A stretch of 8,537 nt of DNA from Maritimibacter sp. (lineage in GTDB: Bacteria > Pseudomonadota > Alphaproteobacteria > Rhodobacterales > Rhodobacteraceae), in the NCBI GenBank assembly GCA_020441225.1, contig JAGRMP010000431.1:525-9061 (forward strand), read 5' to 3'. The translations under genes and the position numbers were made by a program. Within the stretch, counting starts at the first letter, position 1, and each line of letters starts with the position of its first letter. Under the pieces are notes generated by a model. That model was given only the letters and a program-made list of their open reading frames with translations, was not told the DNA's origin and did not search any database. Below, in pieces: positions 1-8,506 of the stretch.

Positions 1-687
1 GAACGACCGGTCGGGATCGATCCGACCCGCTTCCCGGTCGAATTTCCAGTAGGTGACCGCGCCGCGGAACTTTTCGTTGAACTCGCTGAGCGGCGCGAAG
101 CCGCGGCCGAGCACGCCCGGGTATTGCGCCGCTTCGATCACGTATTCCGAGTTCGGGGTCACGAAGGTGCCGCCATGCTCGGATTGCAGGATCGGGTTCA
201 CCACGATCTGCTGGGTTTCGAAGTCATGCAGGCTGACCACACCGACGCGCGGCGCCGACTTGTCGTTGATGAACAGGTATTCGCCGTCGAGATCGCCGTC
301 GGTTTCGGTGATCGCCGGGTGGTGGGTGTCGCCCCACTGGATCTCGCGGCCATCGACCTTGCCGGCTTCGAGGATCGCCTTGGATTCCTCGTCGAACCCG
401 TAGCCCTGCCACGGCTCCGGCGTGAACACCGAGACGTATTTCAGGATCCGCATCGACGGCACACCGTAGACCATGATCTGGCCCGACTGCCCGCCGGAGG
501 AGAATACGATGAATTCGTCCCTGCCGCCGGTCGGCGTATAGGTTTTCGCCGCTGCGAGCAGGTCCTGCTGGGTCAGGCCGCGGGCTTGCATCACCTCGTC
601 CAGCGATTGCGCAGAGGCAATCGTTGGCAGGGTGAGGCCCACCGCGGTCGCTGTCGCCAACAAGCCATTGAAAATGGTCTTGGCCAT
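1..687 (-). CDS. nosZ: Nitrous-oxide reductase NosZ, Sec-type (clade II-like), N-terminal part
   Basis: Periplasmic multicopper enzyme that reduces N2O to N2, the last step of denitrification. The reading frame starts at 687 and is open to the window edge, giving 229 residues, roughly a third of a NosZ; the CuA cupredoxin domain lies outside. Residues 1-26 form a Sec signal peptide ending ASA|Q. There is no twin-arginine motif, whereas classical clade I NosZ is Tat-exported. The beta-propeller begins around residue 57 (FSSGGQSGQ, YGVPSMR). WGDTHHP supplies H122 and H123, and SEHGGTFVTPNSEYV supplies H171; these align with three of the seven histidines of the tetranuclear CuZ centre. LFINDK (138-143) is another NosZ signature. 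The start is supported by a Shine-Dalgarno AAGGGA 8 nt upstream. nosZ is the first gene of its unit, with no nosR before it. Family assignment is firm; the clade II assignment rests on the signal peptide and remembered motif resemblance. Confidence 0.93.
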   Translation of the reverse strand, partial: MAKTIFNGLLATATAVGLTLPTIASAQSLDEVMQARGLTQQDLLAAAKTYTPTGGRDEFIVFSSGGQSGQIMVYGVPSMRILKYVSVFTPEPWQGYGFDEESKAILEAGKVDGREIQWGDTHHPAITETDGDLDGEYLFINDKSAPRVGVVSLHDFETQQIVVNPILQSEHGGTFVTPNSEYVIEAAQYPGVLGRGFAPLSEFNEKFRGAVTYWKFDREAGRIDPDRSF

Positions 688-773
688 TGAGTGCGTCCCT
701 TTCGTCCGGACCGATTCTGAGCGTGTGCAAACACAAGGGCCGGGCGGTCCGAATCCCGTGCCGTGGCCCTAGA

Positions 774-787
774 TCACACGCGCGTGA
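774..787. promoter_or_regulatory. Imperfect inverted repeat, possible operator (TCAC-N6-GTGA)
   Basis: A 14-bp inverted repeat, TCACaCGCGcGTGA, with one mismatched pair, lies 10 bp from the FNR-type box on the nosZ side, overlapping the position where a class II nosZ promoter would have its -10 element. It could be the operator of a second regulator, but it matches no consensus that I can name. GC-rich DNA produces CGCG palindromes easily, so chance is a real alternative. Confidence 0.25.
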
Positions 788-797
788 GCGGGGCTCC

Positions 798-811
798 TTG
801 ACTATTGTTAA
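798..811. promoter_or_regulatory. FNR/Dnr-type box between nosZ and the copper chaperone gene
   Basis: TTGAC-TATT-GTTAA is a near-palindrome matching the CRP/FNR-superfamily consensus TTGAT-N4-ATCAA with two differences. It lies in the divergent intergenic region. If it sits at -41.5, the nosZ transcript would begin near 763 and the chaperone transcript near 846. The -10 hexamers at those positions (GATCTA for nosZ, TACCCG for the chaperone) are weak, so which gene it serves is open; it may serve both. Regulation of nos genes by FNR, Dnr or NnrR homologues is known. The site itself is seen; its function is inferred. Confidence 0.6.
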
Positions 812-884
812 GGCCGCCCCCGGATCGCGGCGTTACCCGGGACGGCAGCGAACCCGACCACCAGAACACTCCCCGGAGACCGAC

Positions 885-1340
885 ATGATCCACCGCCGCA
901 CCCTCCTCGCCGCGCTCGCCGCAGCCGGCCTTTTCGCCCCGGCCGCCCGCGCCCAGGAGGCGACCACCGACACGCTCGAAATCACCGGCGGCTTCGCGCG
1001 GGCCACGGCCGGCATGGCGGTGTCGGGTGCGGCGTTCCTGACCATCGCCTCGCGCGGGCCCGCCGACCGTCTCGTCGGTTTCTCAACTTCAGCCTGTAAC
1101 CGCCCGGAATTGCACACACATATCAACGATGACGGGGTGATGCGGATGCGCCAGGTCGAGGCCATCGACATCCCCGCAGGCGGGGTGGCCGAGCTCAAGC
1201 CCGGCGGGTTGCACCTGATGATGATCGATCTCACCCGGCAACTGGTCGAGGGCGAGACGGTCGAGGTCACGCTGGAGTTCGAGACCGCCGGCACGGTCAC
1301 GCTGACCCTGCCGATCAAAGCCCCCGGCGCGGCGATGTGA
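885..1340 (+). CDS. Periplasmic PCu(A)C-type copper chaperone
   Basis: A 151-residue exported copper(I)-binding protein of the PCuAC (DUF461) family, which delivers copper to CuA and related centres. Residues 1-23 are a signal peptide ending ARA|Q; arginines 4-5 followed by TLL give a weak Tat-like look, though Sec export is as likely. The metal site is exactly canonical: H77-x10-M88-x21-H110-x-M112, with the surrounding DGVMRM, IPAGG and LKPGGLHLM motifs typical of the family. An ATG at 885 is chosen over the upstream frame starts because GGAG lies 6 nt before it and the signal peptide begins there. The gene is divergent from nosZ and ends 18 bp from the convergent menA. Members usually serve cytochrome oxidase CuA; beside nosZ, a role in copper loading of NosZ is the natural inference. 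It is not NosL, which is a different lipoprotein family. Confidence 0.93.
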   Translation: MIHRRTLLAALAAAGLFAPAARAQEATTDTLEITGGFARATAGMAVSGAAFLTIASRGPADRLVGFSTSACNRPELHTHINDDGVMRMRQVEAIDIPAGGVAELKPGGLHLMMIDLTRQLVEGETVEVTLEFETAGTVTLTLPIKAPGAAM

Positions 1341-1358
1341 CCCGCGGACGGTTCTGCC

Positions 1359-2246
1359 TCAGGCGAAGGCGACAACGGCGAGCAGCAACACCTGATACCC
1401 CGCGGTCTGGCCAAGCAGCCGGTTCAGCCGCGCCGAGACCGGCCAGTGCCAGATCGCATGCCCGAGCCAGAGCGCGAGCGCAGCAGGCAACCCGAGCCAG
1501 GGCGTGGGCGCGAACCAGGCCGCAAAGCCAAGCGCGCCCAGAAGTGCTGCGAAATAGAGCAGCCGCGAGGCCGCCGGCCCGACCAATATCGCCAGCGTCC
1601 GCCGCCCGGCGCGGGCGTCCTGCACCCGGTCGCGGTGGTTGTTGAGCATGAGCACCGCCGCCGCCGGCAGGCCGATCATCATCCCCGTCGCGAGGGTACG
1701 GGCCGCAAGCGGATCGACCCCCATGAGCCAGCCCGTGCCCGAAACCGCGACCAGCCCGAAAAACCCGATCACCAGAAGCTCGCCGAAGGGCAGGCCCGAG
1801 AGCGGCAGCGGCCCCATCGAGTAGAAATAGCCCAGCGCCAGCGAGACGAGGCCGATGGCGATGATCGGCCAGCCGCCGACCGCTGCCAGGACCAGCCCGG
1901 CAAGCGCCGCAAGCCCGAAGCTCGCGAGTGCTGCGCGCCGCACCGCCGCCCCGTCGAGCAGGCCGAGCGCCGTCATCCGCGGCGGCCCCAGCCGGTCGGG
2001 CGCATCGACCCCCCGCGCCGCATCCGCCGCGTCGTTCCACAAATTGGTGCCGATCTGGATCGCCGCCGTCGCCACCATCGCCGCGATCAGCACGCCGGGC
2101 CGCAGCCCCGCGCCCGCAAGCCAGCCGCCCGCGAGCACCGGCACCTGGCTGAGGCTCACGGTCTTGAGCCGTGCCGCGATCAACCACAGCGCGGGCGTCG
2201 GCAGCGTGGCGAGCCGGGCGCGGGTTTCCGCGGTGACCGCGCTCAT
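1359..2246 (-). CDS. menA: 1,4-dihydroxy-2-naphthoate polyprenyltransferase MenA
   Basis: Integral membrane prenyltransferase (295 residues) that attaches the polyprenyl tail to 1,4-dihydroxy-2-naphthoate, giving demethylmenaquinone. The first Mg-diphosphate motif is NLWNDAADAARGVD at 68-81 (N71, D72, D75, D81). The second is NNHRDRVQDARAGRRT at 202-217 (D206, D210). The form DxxxDxxxGRRT, together with YSMGPLPLSGLPFGELLV at 142-159, marks MenA as opposed to UbiA or heme O synthase. The length is normal, and the chain is mostly hydrophobic with about eight or nine membrane segments. The start is fixed by GGGAGGA 4 nt upstream. The start overlaps the menG stop by 4 bp (ATGA), indicating translational coupling. 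The substrate is inferred from family and neighbour. Menaquinone is uncommon in alphaproteobacteria, which normally rely on ubiquinone. Confidence 0.9.
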   Translation of the reverse strand: MSAVTAETRARLATLPTPALWLIAARLKTVSLSQVPVLAGGWLAGAGLRPGVLIAAMVATAAIQIGTNLWNDAADAARGVDAPDRLGPPRMTALGLLDGAAVRRAALASFGLAALAGLVLAAVGGWPIIAIGLVSLALGYFYSMGPLPLSGLPFGELLVIGFFGLVAVSGTGWLMGVDPLAARTLATGMMIGLPAAAVLMLNNHRDRVQDARAGRRTLAILVGPAASRLLYFAALLGALGFAAWFAPTPWLGLPAALALWLGHAIWHWPVSARLNRLLGQTAGYQVLLLAVVAFA

Positions 2247-2995
2247 GGCTTCCTCCCGATCTGCAGCCGCGCCACGCCGAAGACGAAAGCGCGCTCCGCC
2301 ACCAGGTCGAGCCCGGCCGCAGCAATGGCGCGGGCGACGTCGGCGCGCCCGGGGAACCGCTCGATCGACTCGACCAGGTAGGTATACGCCCCCCGGTCCC
2401 GCGCCACCGCCGCTCCGATGCGCGGGATCACGTAACGCGCGTGCAGCCCATAAAGCGGCGCAAACCACGCGGCGGGCTGGGAAAACTCCAGGAGCACCAG
2501 GTGCCCGCCGGGGGTCAGCACCCGCGCCACCTCGGCGAGCGCAGCCGCCGGGTCGGTCATGTTCCTGAGCCCGAAGGACAGCGTCACCAGCGCGACCGAT
2601 CCGTCTTCGAACGGCAGTGCCTCGGCGGGGGTCTGCAGATAGTCGAGCGCCGCCCCGCCCCGTTCCCGGGCGATCTCCAGCATCCCCGCCGAGGCATCGG
2701 CGACGACGATCCGCCGCTTTGGCAACCGCTTGCGCAGCGCCAGCGCAAGGTCGCCGGTCCCGCCGGCAAGATCGACCACCGACTCCGGCACCTCGCCCGC
2801 CAACGCCGCCGCCCGCGCCACCGCCGCGCGTTTCCACAGCCGGTGGGTGCCGAAGCTCATCAGATCGTTCATCAGATCATACCGCGGCGCGATCCGGTCG
2901 AAGAGATCGGTCACCGCGCTCTGGCGGTCCGCCTGCGACACCGCCCGCGCGCCGAAGGTCGTGTTCATCTGTTCAAGCTTGGTCGCGCGTTCCAT
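2243..2995 (-). CDS. menG: Demethylmenaquinone methyltransferase (UbiE/MenG family)
   Basis: Class I SAM-dependent C-methyltransferase of 250 residues that converts demethylmenaquinone to menaquinone; family members can also act on the matching ubiquinone precursor. Family signatures run in order: FDRIAPRYDLMNDLMSFGTH (32-51), SAM motif I VVDLAGGTGDLA (73-84), acidic D100 after the second strand, AEALPFED (124-131), FGLRNMTD (141-148), LEFSQP (168-173) and YTYLVESIERFPG (203-215). The protein looks complete with all key motifs. The ATG at 2995 has GGGGA about 5 nt upstream; an internal ATG at 2968 has no ribosome site. It is the first gene of a two-gene unit with menA, behind an FNR-type box. 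The MenG name is preferred over UbiE because of the coupled menA. A separate housekeeping ubiE is expected elsewhere in the genome. Confidence 0.9.
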   Translation of the reverse strand: MERATKLEQMNTTFGARAVSQADRQSAVTDLFDRIAPRYDLMNDLMSFGTHRLWKRAAVARAAALAGEVPESVVDLAGGTGDLALALRKRLPKRRIVVADASAGMLEIARERGGAALDYLQTPAEALPFEDGSVALVTLSFGLRNMTDPAAALAEVARVLTPGGHLVLLEFSQPAAWFAPLYGLHARYVIPRIGAAVARDRGAYTYLVESIERFPGRADVARAIAAAGLDLVAERAFVFGVARLQIGRKP

Positions 2996-3154: not shown

Positions 3155-3883
3155 TCACGGGTCGAGATTGTCTTCGGCGCTGCGGATCACATGTTCCATC
3201 GCCGCCCGCGCCCGCTCCGGGTCGTGGTCGGCGATGGCCTGGACGATGACCCGATGCTCGGCGGCGCTCTTTTCGAGCTCGGCCGAAGAGCGGAAACTGG
3301 TCCGGGCATGGACCTCGCGGTCGAACACGGTTACCAGCGTCGTCTGCACCAGATCGCCCAGCGAATGCATGAAGCGGTTGCCGGTCATCCCGAGGATGGC
3401 GGTGTGAAACCCGAGATCCTCGGCGATGAACGCGCGCCGTGTGGTCGCCCCCGCGAGCGCCCTGACCCGTGCCTCGAGCAGCGCGCAATCCGCCGGTCCC
3501 GCCTTGCGCGCGACCATCGCCGCCGCCGCCGGTTCGAACACCAGCCGGATCTCGAACAGCTCGTCGAGAAACCCCCGCGACTGCCTGAGCGAGGCGTGCC
3601 AGCGCAACACGTCGATGTCGAACATGCTCCAGTCGGCGGCCGGGCGCACGCGGGTGCCGACCTTGGCCTTCGACTCGACCAACCCCTTGGCGACAAGGAT
3701 CTTCTTGGCCTCCCGCACCACCGTGCGCGAGACCCCGAACATCTCTTCCAGGTCGGGATCGAACGGCAGGAGCGTCCCTTGCGGGTATTCGCCCGCGACG
3801 ATCCCGAGGCCCAGCTGTTCGACGACATGCATGGTGTTGTTCAGCGCCCGTTCGGTGAACCCGCCGGGCGCGGTGAAGTTCAT
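3155..3883 (-). CDS. GntR-family regulator, FadR subfamily (FCD domain)
   Basis: DNA-binding regulator of 242 residues, likely a sugar-responsive repressor of the transporter operon in which it is the last gene. The N-terminal winged helix spans about 12-80; the recognition region is LEEMFGVSRTVVREAKKIL (45-63), followed by the wing GLVESKAKVGTRVRP. The linker DWSMFDIDVLRW (84-95) is typical of GntR proteins that control sugar or sugar-acid genes (DgoR-like). The FCD effector domain fills 105-235, with putative metal ligands D156, H160, H210 and H231. The chosen ATG at 3883 overlaps the yjfF stop as ATGA, the same junction used twice upstream. An ATG at 3934 has a good ribosome site (AGAAGG, 7 nt away) and would add 17 residues with a 55-bp overlap; either could be right. 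Function as repressor of its own operon is inferred from context. Confidence 0.88.
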   Translation of the reverse strand: MNFTAPGGFTERALNNTMHVVEQLGLGIVAGEYPQGTLLPFDPDLEEMFGVSRTVVREAKKILVAKGLVESKAKVGTRVRPAADWSMFDIDVLRWHASLRQSRGFLDELFEIRLVFEPAAAAMVARKAGPADCALLEARVRALAGATTRRAFIAEDLGFHTAILGMTGNRFMHSLGDLVQTTLVTVFDREVHARTSFRSSAELEKSAAEHRVIVQAIADHDPERARAAMEHVIRSAEDNLDP

Positions 3884-4872
3884 GATCGCGTCGCGGATGC
3901 GTTCCCCGGCCTTCTTCCCTTCGTCGTCGCCCATCCCAATGCCTTCTGCAGCATGATGAACGCGAAGAGCAGCCCCCCGATGACGATCTTGGTCCACCAG
4001 CTCGACAGCGTGCCATCAAACACGATGTATGTCTGTATCAGACCCATGATGAGGATGCCAAAGAAAGTGCCCGCGACATAGCCCGAGCCGCCGGTCAGCA
4101 GCGTGCCGCCGATCACCACCGCGGCGATGGCGTCGAGCTCGACGCCGACGGTGGCGAGCGAATAGCCCGCTGAGGTGTAGATCGAATAGACGATGCCTGC
4201 GAGCCCCGCGAGCCCGCCGCCGATGGCGTAGATCGTGATCGTGGTCCGCGCGATCGGCACGCCCATCAGCCGCGCCGTCGCCGCACTGCCGCCGAGCGCA
4301 TAGACGTTGCGCCCGAAGCGCGTCCGGTGCAGCACGATCAGCGCGACGATATAGGCCAGGATCATGATCCCGCCGATGAGCCGGAACCGCCCGCCCCCCG
4401 GCGCCTTCCACACCACGTCCTGGATCGTGTCGTAGAATTCATGGGTGATCGGAACGGAATCCGTCGACAGCACATAGGCCAGCCCACGCATCAGGAACAT
4501 CCCCGCGAGCGTGACGATAAAGGGCGGCATCTCCAGGTAATGGATGATCCCCCCCATCGCCGCGCCGAAAGCGGTGGTGATCGCGAGCAGCAGCACGAAG
4601 GCAAAGAGCGGGTGAATGCCGGTATCGCGCAGGATCACCGCGAGGAAGACCCCGGAAAAGGCGATCACCGAGCCGACCGAAAGATCGATACCGCCCGAGA
4701 GGATGACAAAGGTCATCCCCACCGCCGTCAGGCCCAGAAAGGCGTTGTCGGTCAACAGGTTGGCGACCACGCGGGTGGAAAACATCGCCGGGTACTGCCA
4801 GCCCGAGATCAGGTAGGCCAGCACGAAGGTGGCCATGGTGATGTAGAGCGCGAGCCGGGGGGAACGCATCAT
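3880..4872 (-). CDS. yjfF: Sugar ABC transporter permease YjfF
   Basis: Inner-membrane permease of 330 residues (BPD_transp_2, ribose/galactose class), one half of the presumed heterodimeric channel. The hallmark GMTFVILSGGIDLSVGS is at 52-68, and a cytoplasmic coupling-type segment, AIAAVVIGGTLLTGGSGYVAG, lies in the C-terminal half. The chain is hydrophobic throughout with some eight to ten membrane helices and a short basic C-terminal tail. A start at 4872 is taken because it overlaps the ytfT stop as ATGA and has GGGAG 8 nt upstream; a second ATG directly follows at 4869. The partner is YtfT and the motor is YtfR. Assignment as YjfF, as opposed to a second YtfT, follows from the order Q-R-T-F and from its similarity to E. 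coli YjfF as I remember it. Confidence 0.9.
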   Translation of the reverse strand: MMRSPRLALYITMATFVLAYLISGWQYPAMFSTRVVANLLTDNAFLGLTAVGMTFVILSGGIDLSVGSVIAFSGVFLAVILRDTGIHPLFAFVLLLAITTAFGAAMGGIIHYLEMPPFIVTLAGMFLMRGLAYVLSTDSVPITHEFYDTIQDVVWKAPGGGRFRLIGGIMILAYIVALIVLHRTRFGRNVYALGGSAATARLMGVPIARTTITIYAIGGGLAGLAGIVYSIYTSAGYSLATVGVELDAIAAVVIGGTLLTGGSGYVAGTFFGILIMGLIQTYIVFDGTLSSWWTKIVIGGLLFAFIMLQKALGWATTKGRRPGNASATRS

Positions 4873-5929
4873 GACCGGGTCTCCCGTGCCTGTGCCGAGG
4901 GGGCGGTGGGCGCGCCGGGCGCATCCGACACGGTCGAACTGGCCTTGGCGCGCAAGAGGTAGAGGCTGTGCTTCACCGTCGGCGACTGGATCACCAGGAT
5001 GACGATGATGATGAGCGCCTTGATGACGAGGTTGAACTCGGGCGGCATGCCCGACAGCAGGATCACCGAGTTGACCGACTGGATGATGAGCGCGCCGAGC
5101 AGCGAGGCGACGATGGAGAACCGCCCGCCAAGGAGCGAGTTGCCGCCGATCACCACGGCGAGGATCGCGTCGAGCTCCATCCAGAGCCCGGCGTTGTTGG
5201 CATCCGCCCCCTTGATGTCGGCGGCCACGATCACCCCCGCGGTGGCGGCGCAGAACCCCGAGGTGAGATAGACGGTCACCAGCAGCACCCGCGAGTTGAT
5301 GCCGGCAAGCCGCGAGGCGGTCTCGTTGATGCCGATGGCCTCGATCAGCATGCCGAGCGCCGTGCGGCGCACCACGAGCGTGACCAGCGTGCCGAGGGCG
5401 ATCCAGATCAGCACCGGGGTCGGCACCCCGGCGATGGTGCCGGCACCGAGATGGATCAGCCCTTCATTGAGAAAGGTCATGATCTTGCCCTCGGTGATGA
5501 GCTGGGCCACGCCCCGCCCCGCCACCATGAGCACCAGCGTCGCCACGATGGGCTGGACCCGGAAAAAGGCAACCAGCACCCCGTTCCACAGCCCCGCCAC
5601 GAGCCCGGCCGCGAGCGCGGCCAGGAGCGCCGTGAACCAACCGCCGCCGCCGGTGACGACGCTCGCCGCCACCGCGCCCGCAATGGCCATCACCGCGCCG
5701 ACCGACAAATCGATCCCCTTGGTCGCGATCACCAGCGTCATGCCGACGGCCAGGAGCGCCACCGGCGCACCGCGGTTGAGCACGTCGATCAGGTTGCCGA
5801 ACAGCCGCCCGTTCTGAAACTCGATGTGGAAAAACCCCGGAAACACCGCGAAGTTGAGCAGGAGCACAACGCCGAGAATGATGAGCTGCGGCAGGATCCG
5901 CCGGAAGGTCGCGCTGAGACTGCTGCCGT

Positions 5930-5933
<4 letters not shown>
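4869..5933 (-). CDS. ytfT: Sugar ABC transporter permease YtfT
   Basis: Inner-membrane permease of 354 residues, partner of YjfF. Segments nearly identical to E. coli YtfT as remembered include GRLFGNLIDVLNRGAPVALL (42-61), VGMTLVIATKGIDLSVGAVM (63-82), LVMLVAGRGVAQLIT-type sequence in the middle and KGADANNAGLWMELDAILAV in the C-terminal half. Lysine 72 replaces the glycine that I recall in the E. coli ATGGIDLSVG motif. The C-terminal tail of about 25 residues is rich in Ala, Ser and Pro and probably cytoplasmic and disordered. The start at 5933 overlaps the ytfR stop by ATGA, and a purine-rich AAGG element lies just upstream. The close resemblance to the galactofuranose transporter makes a furanose sugar the best guess for the substrate. 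Confidence 0.93.
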
Positions 5934-7453
<1,520 letters not shown>

Positions 7454-7510
7454 GGCAATCGTCTCCTCCCACGCATGCGCCGCGCCACACGCAGTTGCGC
7501 GGGCGCGGAT

Positions 7511-7536
7511 CGGGAAGGCCCCTCGGGGCCTCCCCG
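7511..7536 (-). ncRNA. Intercistronic RNA hairpin between ytfQ and ytfR
   Basis: Positions 7511-7521 pair with 7526-7536 around a four-base loop. On the minus-strand RNA all 11 pairs form, one as a G-U wobble; on the plus-strand RNA that pair would be an A-C mismatch, so the structure fits the operon's own direction. It starts 17 nt after the ytfQ stop. No U-run follows, so full termination is unlikely. Hairpins after binding-protein genes, as in malE-malF, protect the upstream message and lower downstream expression, matching the need for excess periplasmic protein. That role is inferred here. This is a cis element in the mRNA, not a separate RNA gene. Confidence 0.65.
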
Positions 7537-7552
7537 CCATGGTGAAGGTATA

Positions 7553-8506
7553 TCAGTAACCGAGGCCTTTTTTCATCTCGTAGACGGCCTGGTTGTCGTC
7601 GTCCGCGGTGTAGAGCTTCGATTCCGTCTGCACCCACTTCGCGGGCATCGTGCCGTCGGCCCAGTAGGCTTCGAGGATATCGAAGGCCGGCCCGGCCATG
7701 TTCGGCGTCAGCTCGACGGTCGCGTTTGCTTCGCCGTTGGCGATGGCCAGGTGCATGTCCGGCACCGCGTCGATGGCGACGACGAGGATGTCTTCGCCGG
7801 GCTTGGCGCCTGCTTCCTTGATCGCCTGGATCGCGCCGACGGCCATGTCGTCGTTATGGGCGTAGAGCGCGCAGATGTTCTCGGCGCCTTCCGCCTTGAG
7901 GAAGCTTTCCATCACCACCTTGCCCTGGGCCCGGGTGAAATCGCCGGTCTGGCTGCGCACGATCTCGATATTCGGCGAGTCGGCGATGGCGGCTTCGAAG
8001 CCCGCCTTGCGGTCGATCGCCGGCGACGAGCCGGTGGTGCCCTGCAGCTCGACCACGCGGCAGTCGGCTCCGGCCAGCGTGTCGACCAGCCACTTGCCGG
8101 CCACTTCGCCTTCGTAGACGGTGTCGGAAGTGACGGCGGTCATGTAGAGATCGTCCGAGGCATCGACCTTGCGGTCGAGCAGGATCACCGGGATCTCGGC
8201 GTCCTGGGCTTCTTCCAGCACCGAATCCCAGCCGGTCGCCACGACGGGGGCGAGCAGGATCGCGTCGACGCCCTGGGCGATGAAGCCGCGCACGGCCTTG
8301 ATCTGGTTTTCCTGCTTCTGCTGCGCGTCGGCGAATTTCAGATCGATCCCGCGGGCTTCGGCCTGTTCCTTGGTGACGGTGGTTTCGGCCGCGCGCCAGC
8401 CCGATTCCGAGCCGATCTGCGAAAAGCCGACGGTCTCTCCTTCGGCCCAAGCGCCGACGGGCGCCATCGCCATAACGGAGACGAGCAGTGCTGACTTGAT
8501 CTTCAT
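7553..8506 (-). CDS. ytfQ: Periplasmic sugar-binding protein YtfQ (galactofuranose type)
   Basis: Exported substrate-binding protein of 317 residues, the first gene of the transporter operon seen here. A Sec signal peptide ends AWA|E after residue 21; there is no lipobox, so the mature protein is soluble. The match to E. coli YtfQ is close over its whole length: VGFSQIGSESGWRAAE (26-41), QQKQENQIKAVR (62-73), APVVATGWD (86-94), VELQGT (152-157), SQTGDFTR (185-192), YAHNDDM (215-221) and ELTPNMAGPAFD near the C terminus. W37-R38 and D111 fall where ligand contacts are expected in the E. coli protein. C149 and C212 are both in conserved places and could form a disulfide. The start has a strong ribosome site, GGGAGG 5 nt upstream. 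Galactofuranose is the best substrate guess; arabinose-type sugars are possible. Confidence 0.95.
   Translation of the reverse strand: MKIKSALLVSVMAMAPVGAWAEGETVGFSQIGSESGWRAAETTVTKEQAEARGIDLKFADAQQKQENQIKAVRGFIAQGVDAILLAPVVATGWDSVLEEAQDAEIPVILLDRKVDASDDLYMTAVTSDTVYEGEVAGKWLVDTLAGADCRVVELQGTTGSSPAIDRKAGFEAAIADSPNIEIVRSQTGDFTRAQGKVVMESFLKAEGAENICALYAHNDDMAVGAIQAIKEAGAKPGEDILVVAIDAVPDMHLAIANGEANATVELTPNMAGPAFDILEAYWADGTMPAKWVQTESKLYTADDDNQAVYEMKKGLGY

Follow-up and report, generated by a model that had tools for sequence, protein, structure and literature searches.

Clade II nosZ of Alphaproteobacteria recurs beside menG and menA, possibly a terminal menaquinone pathway fed by an imported precursor

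Bacteria with clade II NosZ count among the biological sinks of nitrous oxide (N2O). The stretch of DNA analysed here (the window, 8,537 nucleotides of Maritimibacter sp. contig JAGRMP010000431.1) carries at one end the beginning of a clade II nosZ gene, a gene for a PCuAC copper chaperone, and menA and menG. MenA prenylates 1,4-dihydroxy-2-naphthoate (DHNA) with a polyprenyl diphosphate; the resulting compound is methylated by MenG, and NosGH-type proteins draw electrons from quinol. A first-pass annotation of the window had proposed that N2O reductase and the finishing enzymes of menaquinone synthesis travel together. The linkage was right and turned out to be more general, whereas the self-made menaquinone of that proposal gives way to a probable scavenging module; the original interpretation is thus supported in part.

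menG, menA and clade II nosZ as a recurrent module

The genes recognized at first sight in positions 1–2995, namely nosZ, the copper chaperone and a coupled menG-menA pair, were all confirmed by family models and by a 4-bp overlap (ATGA) between menG and menA (Table 1). The nosZ fragment scores 254.6 bits with the Sec-dependent model TIGR04246 versus 93.5 bits with the TAT-type model TIGR04244; the cut-off of 625 bits for TIGR04246 applies to full-length NosZ, and the fragment in the window has only 229 residues. It also matches NosZ structures in the PDB. MenA, scanned over positions 1359–2240, passes the curated menA equivalog TIGR00751. Its best-scoring models are MenA models, those other than TIGR00751 staying under their own cut-offs, and the sole PDB family matched by the MenA profile is UBIAD1 (8djk/8djm). 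The 4-bp menG/menA overlap is also present in 12 of 21 relatives compared, with gene starts chosen by script.

Table 1. Features of the menG-menA-nosZ region in the window.
Feature	Position	Strand	Evidence
nosZ, clade II (Sec-type), first 229 aa	1..687	minus	TIGR04246 best NCBIfam model; truncated by window end
FNR/NnrR-like box TTGACTATTGTTAA, nosZ/PCuAC divergent gap	798..811	plus	1 mismatch
PCuAC periplasmic copper chaperone	885..1340	plus	PF04314, 115.2 bits
menA, 1,4-dihydroxy-2-naphthoate polyprenyltransferase	1359..2246	minus	TIGR00751, 112.6 bits (cut-off 102.15); PF01040
menG (UbiE/MenG-family methyltransferase)	2243..2995	minus	TIGR01934, 230.4 bits (cut-off 158.35)
FNR/NnrR-like box upstream of menG, TTGACTTTCCTCAA	3080..3093	minus (menG strand reads TTGAGGAAAGTCAA)	1 mismatch

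Related loci were collected by scanning genome contigs with a MenA profile, which gave 31 loci and genomes (L and G numbers). By title, 29 belong to Alphaproteobacteria, one to Pseudomonadota (L024) and one to Gammaproteobacteria (L030). The counts for menA genomes rest on these 31 relatives, a set to which the source genome of the window does not belong. menG, menA and clade II nosZ are contiguous in 17 of the 31 loci (L001–L006, L008, L010, L012–L015, L022, L024–L027), and in 14 of the 17 a PCuAC gene lies between menA and nosZ on the opposite strand. Seven of the contiguous loci (L001, L002, L004, L005, L008, L010 and L013) come from records whose title does not name a metagenome-assembled genome (MAG). 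Cultured carriers include Maritimibacter sp. HL-12, Pseudothioclava arenosa and Sedimentimonas flavescens. Since this contiguity recurs so often, the linkage is above chance, and the adjacency of menA and menG to a Sec-type nosZ is not unique to the genome of the window.

Clade II NosZ is encoded in 20 of the 31 menA genomes, over the cut-off in 18 and as a partial match in two, G014 (in two pieces) and G030 (at a contig end). Full-length NosZ of these relatives scores 852–890 bits with TIGR04246 in 17 genomes and 782 bits in G003. The NosZ matches of G016, G018 and G023 reach only 426–467 bits, a level taken as clade I, and eight of the 31 genomes gave no NosZ match at an E-value of 1e-20. 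In G007, menG adjoins nosZ and menA was found on another contig (L101, L007).

In an order-wide sample of 390 genomes, three exceed the cut-off for clade II NosZ and four that for menA. All three clade II NosZ genomes are among the four with menA, the fourth being G017. A NosZ match of 377–474 bits, below the cut-off, is found in 124 of the 390, none of which has menA. The sample takes in the centre genome, and its members are related, so no probability is attached to these counts; some genomes were scored on few candidates (three for NosZ, six for the transporter described below), and a weak match may have been missed. At the level of the class, menA is over the cut-off in 3 of 385 genomes; clade II NosZ was found in 1 of 218, the centre genome alone, which is uninformative. 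Two genomes with menA in the class-wide set, G459 and G585, gave no menG, nos or menA-type transporter match by tblastn (E-value 1e-12) in 19.9 kb. Distances for menA and nosZ correlate with r = 0.74, or 0.51 as a partial correlation given ubiE, in 16 genomes that are related and not independent. These values are consistent with co-inheritance and are not leaned on. A plasmid origin was considered and rejected: 34 plasmid records match, but none covers 80% of MenA, and the best listed identity is 46%. Taken together, the locus survey and the order sample support menA/menG and clade II nosZ as a recurrent module.

The menG gene is a dedicated second copy, distinct from the housekeeping-like ubiE. 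A UbiE-family protein is over the cut-off in all 31 menA genomes, 25 of which have two matches, with the second of G031 below the cut-off. In 23 of these 25, one copy adjoins menA or nosZ; the exceptions are G030 and G031. MenG of the window shares 38–46% identity with 30 housekeeping-like UbiE proteins. A single UbiE-family copy is present in G009, G011, G016, G017, G018 and G021.

Regulatory boxes and neighbouring genes

Similar FNR-type boxes had been taken as a sign that menGA and nosZ are co-regulated. Scored against the consensus TTGAY-N4-RTCAA, the window has 11 sites with at most two mismatches, where 4.5 would be expected; 3 of 200 shuffled sequences reached that count. A third site with one mismatch, at 7284, falls within a coding gene. 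A best site scoring at least 8/10 is found in 592 of 5000 random 200-bp pieces, so a lone box is weak evidence and it is recurrence that counts. Such recurrence is seen in relatives. Of 20 loci, 8 (L001–L006, L008, L010) have TTGA(G/T)-N4-GTCAA at 70–78 bp ahead of the MenG match and 12 do not; the menG box of the window, 98 bp before the menG start, lies outside this range. TTAAC-N4-GTCAA occurs in the nosZ/PCuAC gap of 9 of 15 loci (L001–L006, L008, L010, L012), the menA/nosZ gap being used where PCuAC was not found, and two of the remaining six have a perfect TTGAT-N4-ATCAA in their nosZ gaps. FNR-like boxes thus recur in part of the loci, and joint control of menGA and nosZ is a prediction.

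In the extended loci of relatives, nosZ, C1, C2, B, D, G, H, F, L and Y follow one another in the same direction, several of them named by position. They are followed on the opposite strand by genes for a thioredoxin-like protein and SCO1, and then by a gene for a transporter of the BASS (sodium/bile acid symporter) family. NosD passes TIGR04247, NosY matches solved NosY, two di-haem cytochromes (NosC) are present, NosL is below the Pfam cut-off, and NosB, which matched no family model, is named by position. The expectation that NosG and NosH accompany clade II nos systems holds in that both are in the cluster and NosH passes TIGR02163 (NapH/MauN); NosG is NapG-like and stays below the NapG cut-offs.

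Upstream of menGA, seven loci (L010, L013, L015, part of L022, L023, L025 and L026) have a nor region and a CRP/FNR-type regulator, as does L016 upstream of menA. This region comprises cytochrome c, COX1-domain, CbbQ-type and VWA-domain proteins, among which domain content and gene order served to name NorB, C and D. A gene census of the 31 loci gave 21 families in at least five loci (cut 4): menA, menG, nos genes, PCuAC, a regulator, nor genes, the BASS transporter, cytochrome d1-type proteins and one open reading frame (ORF) of 81 residues. BASS appears in seven loci of this set, as the nos-type loci end before reaching its gene. No biosynthetic family besides menA and menG occurred in at least five of the 31 loci. 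The 81-residue ORF, upstream of menG (L006 8912–9157 and five other loci), is the sole family left unplaced; it has no Pfam match and may be a spurious gene call.

Cytochrome d1-domain proteins of the nirS/nirF type are encoded near menA in five loci (for example, L016 380–1915 and L004 3079–4227), so the menA module often sits in a denitrification island. In L024 (5117–6885) and L027 (2092–3851), menG is preceded by a second NosG/NosH-like pair with 31–33% identity, perhaps another quinol dehydrogenase.

Some loci have features of their own. In a Maritimibacter MAG (L003 2653–4942), nosZ is split over several frames, perhaps through assembly errors. Aliiroseovarius crassostreae (G023; L023 9222–19345) retains menG-menA and a partial PCuAC match; its nosZ (15392–17140), accompanied by nosD/nosF-like genes, is at the clade I level, and it is possible that one nos cluster was replaced by another. 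In Tropicimonas (L017 5858–10888), menA lies beside genes for a B12-binding radical SAM protein, a V4R-domain protein and 5-aminolevulinate synthase, surroundings which we take to resemble a bacteriochlorophyll gene region; neither clade II nosZ nor a menA-type transporter was found there. In L007 (9331–10876) and L009 (9391–10870), menA lacks an accompanying menG and neighbours a gene for an Rrf2-family regulator, and in L009 a nonribosomal peptide synthetase-like gene lies upstream of menA.

In the remaining 5.5 kb of the window (within 3155–8506), yjfF, ytfT, ytfR and ytfQ encode a galactofuranose-type ABC transporter, of which YtfQ and YjfF are over NCBIfam cut-offs, and a further gene encodes a GntR regulator of the FCD type. 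These genes are taken to be unrelated neighbours.

The upstream pathway and the BASS transporter

The first-pass annotation had pictured a normal menaquinone pathway behind the module. MenD, MenB, MqnA/D and MqnC, for each of which the search returned over-cut-off matches in some control genomes, were each found above curated cut-offs in none of the 31 relatives. The searches covered these four families. Although many of the 31 are MAGs, from which genes may be missing, the absence of the four families is uniform. Three near misses were rejected. A MenD-like protein of G006 (161.8 of 244.2 bits) is a thiamine diphosphate enzyme beside an epimerase-family gene, with no men genes noticed in 4.2 kb. 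A MenB-like protein of G005 is over the BadI cut-off, which points to benzoate degradation rather than menaquinone. In G009, a protein reaching 24.4 of 26 bits with PF02621 passes the NMT1 cut-off and was assigned to NMT1-type substrate-binding proteins.

Judged by these searches, neither known route to DHNA (Men or futalosine) appears to be present in the relatives, and all 31 would have menA without the upstream genes, as in DHNA scavenging. Such an absence had been named beforehand as a reason to drop the idea of a menaquinone module. The absence was found, but since menA is accompanied by a BASS transporter, it is read here as a sign that a precursor is imported.

This transporter, encoded at the end of the nos cluster in G001, has a match in 29 of the 31 menA genomes. 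In 22 (G001–G008, G010, G012, G013, G015, G016, G018–G021, G024, G026, G028, G029, G031) the gene is on the same contig as menA, menG or nosZ, at about 14 kb or less. In three more (G014, G022 and G025) the contig piece bears the SCO1 and thioredoxin-like genes of the nos cluster, together with nos genes in G022 and G025. G023 has BASS on another contig, and in G027 no nos genes were found in the 15 of 29 kb of the BASS contig that were read. BASS directly adjoins menA or menG in G016, G018, G019, G021, G028, G029 and G031, seven genomes that gave no clade II nosZ; the association is therefore with menA. In the order sample, the three genomes with clade II nosZ and menA score 221–545 bits and are the only ones to exceed 150, the best other genome reaching 120.

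In a maximum-likelihood tree, the BASS proteins of 27 menA genomes and a second copy from G019 form one clade (97/88). Eighteen background members stand apart (100/97), 17 from menA-less genomes plus the match of G011. The weak match of G030 is a long branch outside both clades, and G009 and G017 have no match. The protein scores 82.0 bits with PF01758 (cut-off 24.3), and 14 members all have residues S83, N84, E230 and Q234, which align with the Na+-site motifs S-N and E-xxx-Q of bacterial ASBT (3zuy). The six menA-adjacent members scanned are far under the PanS and bass NCBIfam cut-offs. The two menA-type copies of G019, a Hyphomicrobiales MAG with no NosZ match, are in L019 (3535–5165) and L131, and one of them overlaps menG by 4 bp.

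A predicted scavenging module and known systems

The current thinking, held with fair confidence, is that this alphaproteobacterial cluster pairs clade II N2O respiration with the terminal half of menaquinone synthesis and relies on an imported precursor. The BASS transporter would bring in DHNA, or a hydroxynaphthoate close to it, together with Na+; MenA would attach the polyprenyl tail that is also used for ubiquinone, and MenG would methylate the product to menaquinone. NosG and NosH could then oxidize menaquinol and pass electrons via the NosC cytochromes to NosZ, with an FNR/NnrR-type regulator turning on menGA and nosZ together. All of this biochemistry is predicted from sequence. The first steps follow from gene content; the substrate of BASS and the use of menaquinone by NosGH are putative. 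A bolder version is put forward tentatively, as an idea we lean slightly away from: the menA-linked BASS clade would be a dedicated DHNA importer, a group of Alphaproteobacteria would respire N2O with clade II NosZ only when neighbours leak DHNA, and a greenhouse-gas sink would thus hang on a shared vitamin-like compound and could spread into ubiquinone bacteria as one module.

Several observations weigh against an imported precursor serving N2O respiration. The contig of the window breaks off within nosZ and thus does not show the transporter, and window MenG, which passes the subfamily model, is below the cut-offs of all quinone-specific NCBIfam equivalogs. Eleven of the 31 menA genomes are without clade II NosZ; among them, G009, G011 and G017 also have neither a menA-clade transporter nor a second ubiE, and G023 has menGA beside a clade I-level nos cluster and the transporter on another contig. 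The BASS proteins of G028, G029 and G031 score 114–126 bits, no higher than background, so their case rests on adjacency and the tree, and the substrate of the family as a whole is assigned through guilt by association. NosG and NosH are NapG/H-like, and since NapGH can accept electrons from ubiquinol, the cluster need not strictly depend on menaquinone. Ubiquinone-based lineages also have clade II NosZ, and such clusters can probably work there without menaquinone. Described Paracoccaceae are reported in PMC11092380 to contain ubiquinone-10 (Q-10).

Alternatively, DHNA might be made by an unidentified or highly diverged route and finished by MenA and MenG, with BASS carrying something else. 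The absence of MenD, MenB, MqnA and MqnC is an absence of known families only, and the gene survey covered the menA loci. This nevertheless seems unlikely, as the census of those loci gave no further biosynthetic family, the unexplained 81-residue ORF aside, and the recurrent extra gene is a transporter. It would be more surprising if MenA and MenG used another imported aromatic acid and yielded a different low-potential quinone. UbiA-family enzymes do vary in substrate, and MenG, at home only in its subfamily model, also scores with the methyl-plastoquinone model MpqE, below the cut-off; against this, MenA is over the cut-off of a menA equivalog and has MenA models as its best matches.

The linkage might also be only regulatory or ecological, menaquinone serving other anoxic enzymes and NosZ being fed from ubiquinol via bc1 or NosGH. 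Two electron routes to clade II NosZ, through bc1 or through NosGH/NosBC2/NosC1, are described in PMC11539149, and menA with the transporter is also found without clade II nosZ, once beside nor genes (L016), which implies other uses for menaquinone. We consider this explanation rather improbable too, since menA in the order sample tracks clade II nosZ and not the clade I-level matches. That the genes are chance neighbours is hardly credible: the window alone is one contig, but the contiguous loci, the 4-bp overlap and the boxes all recur.

If an imported precursor is indeed used, the N2O sink activity of carriers would hang on cross-feeding, and axenic tests would underrate them; DHNA, a cheap additive, would provide a direct test. 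The cluster would also offer a candidate DHNA importer and a rule for the entry of a menaquinone-type reductase into ubiquinone-based bacteria. A literature search at the level of titles and the first part of abstracts gave no paper describing nos clusters with menA or with a BASS transporter, nor one on a DHNA uptake transporter. Partial menaquinone pathways have been described, as have clade II nos clusters, but in that search no account of the two combined with a transporter was found.

The closest known cluster is that of Wolinella succinogenes, a menaquinone-based bacterium whose nos genes are nosZ, B, D, G, C1, C2, H, F, Y and L. The relatives share with it a Sec-type NosZ, two NosC, NosD, a NosG-like protein, NosH, NosF and NosY; the likeness is weaker for NosL, which is below its cut-off, and for NosB, placed by position only. 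Menaquinol feeds NosC1/C2 in Wolinella, according to PMC11102522. Unlike in Wolinella, menG, menA and BASS are built into the nos cluster, and the host family is reported to have Q-10. The transporter resembles the BASS/SLC10 proteins (ASBT, PanS) in its PF01758 match and ASBT in its aligned motifs, but differs from them in forming a separate clade tied to menA, with scanned members far below the PanS and bass cut-offs. A parallel for menA kept while upstream pathway genes are missing is Streptococcus agalactiae. As described in PMC6030563, its menA shares a respiratory operon with cydAB and ndh, and the bacterium converts DHNA or short-chain quinones to demethylmenaquinone-10 (DMK-10). That system serves cytochrome bd in a host needing external quinone, whereas the present one combines a ubiquinone background with menG, a candidate importer and an N2O reductase.

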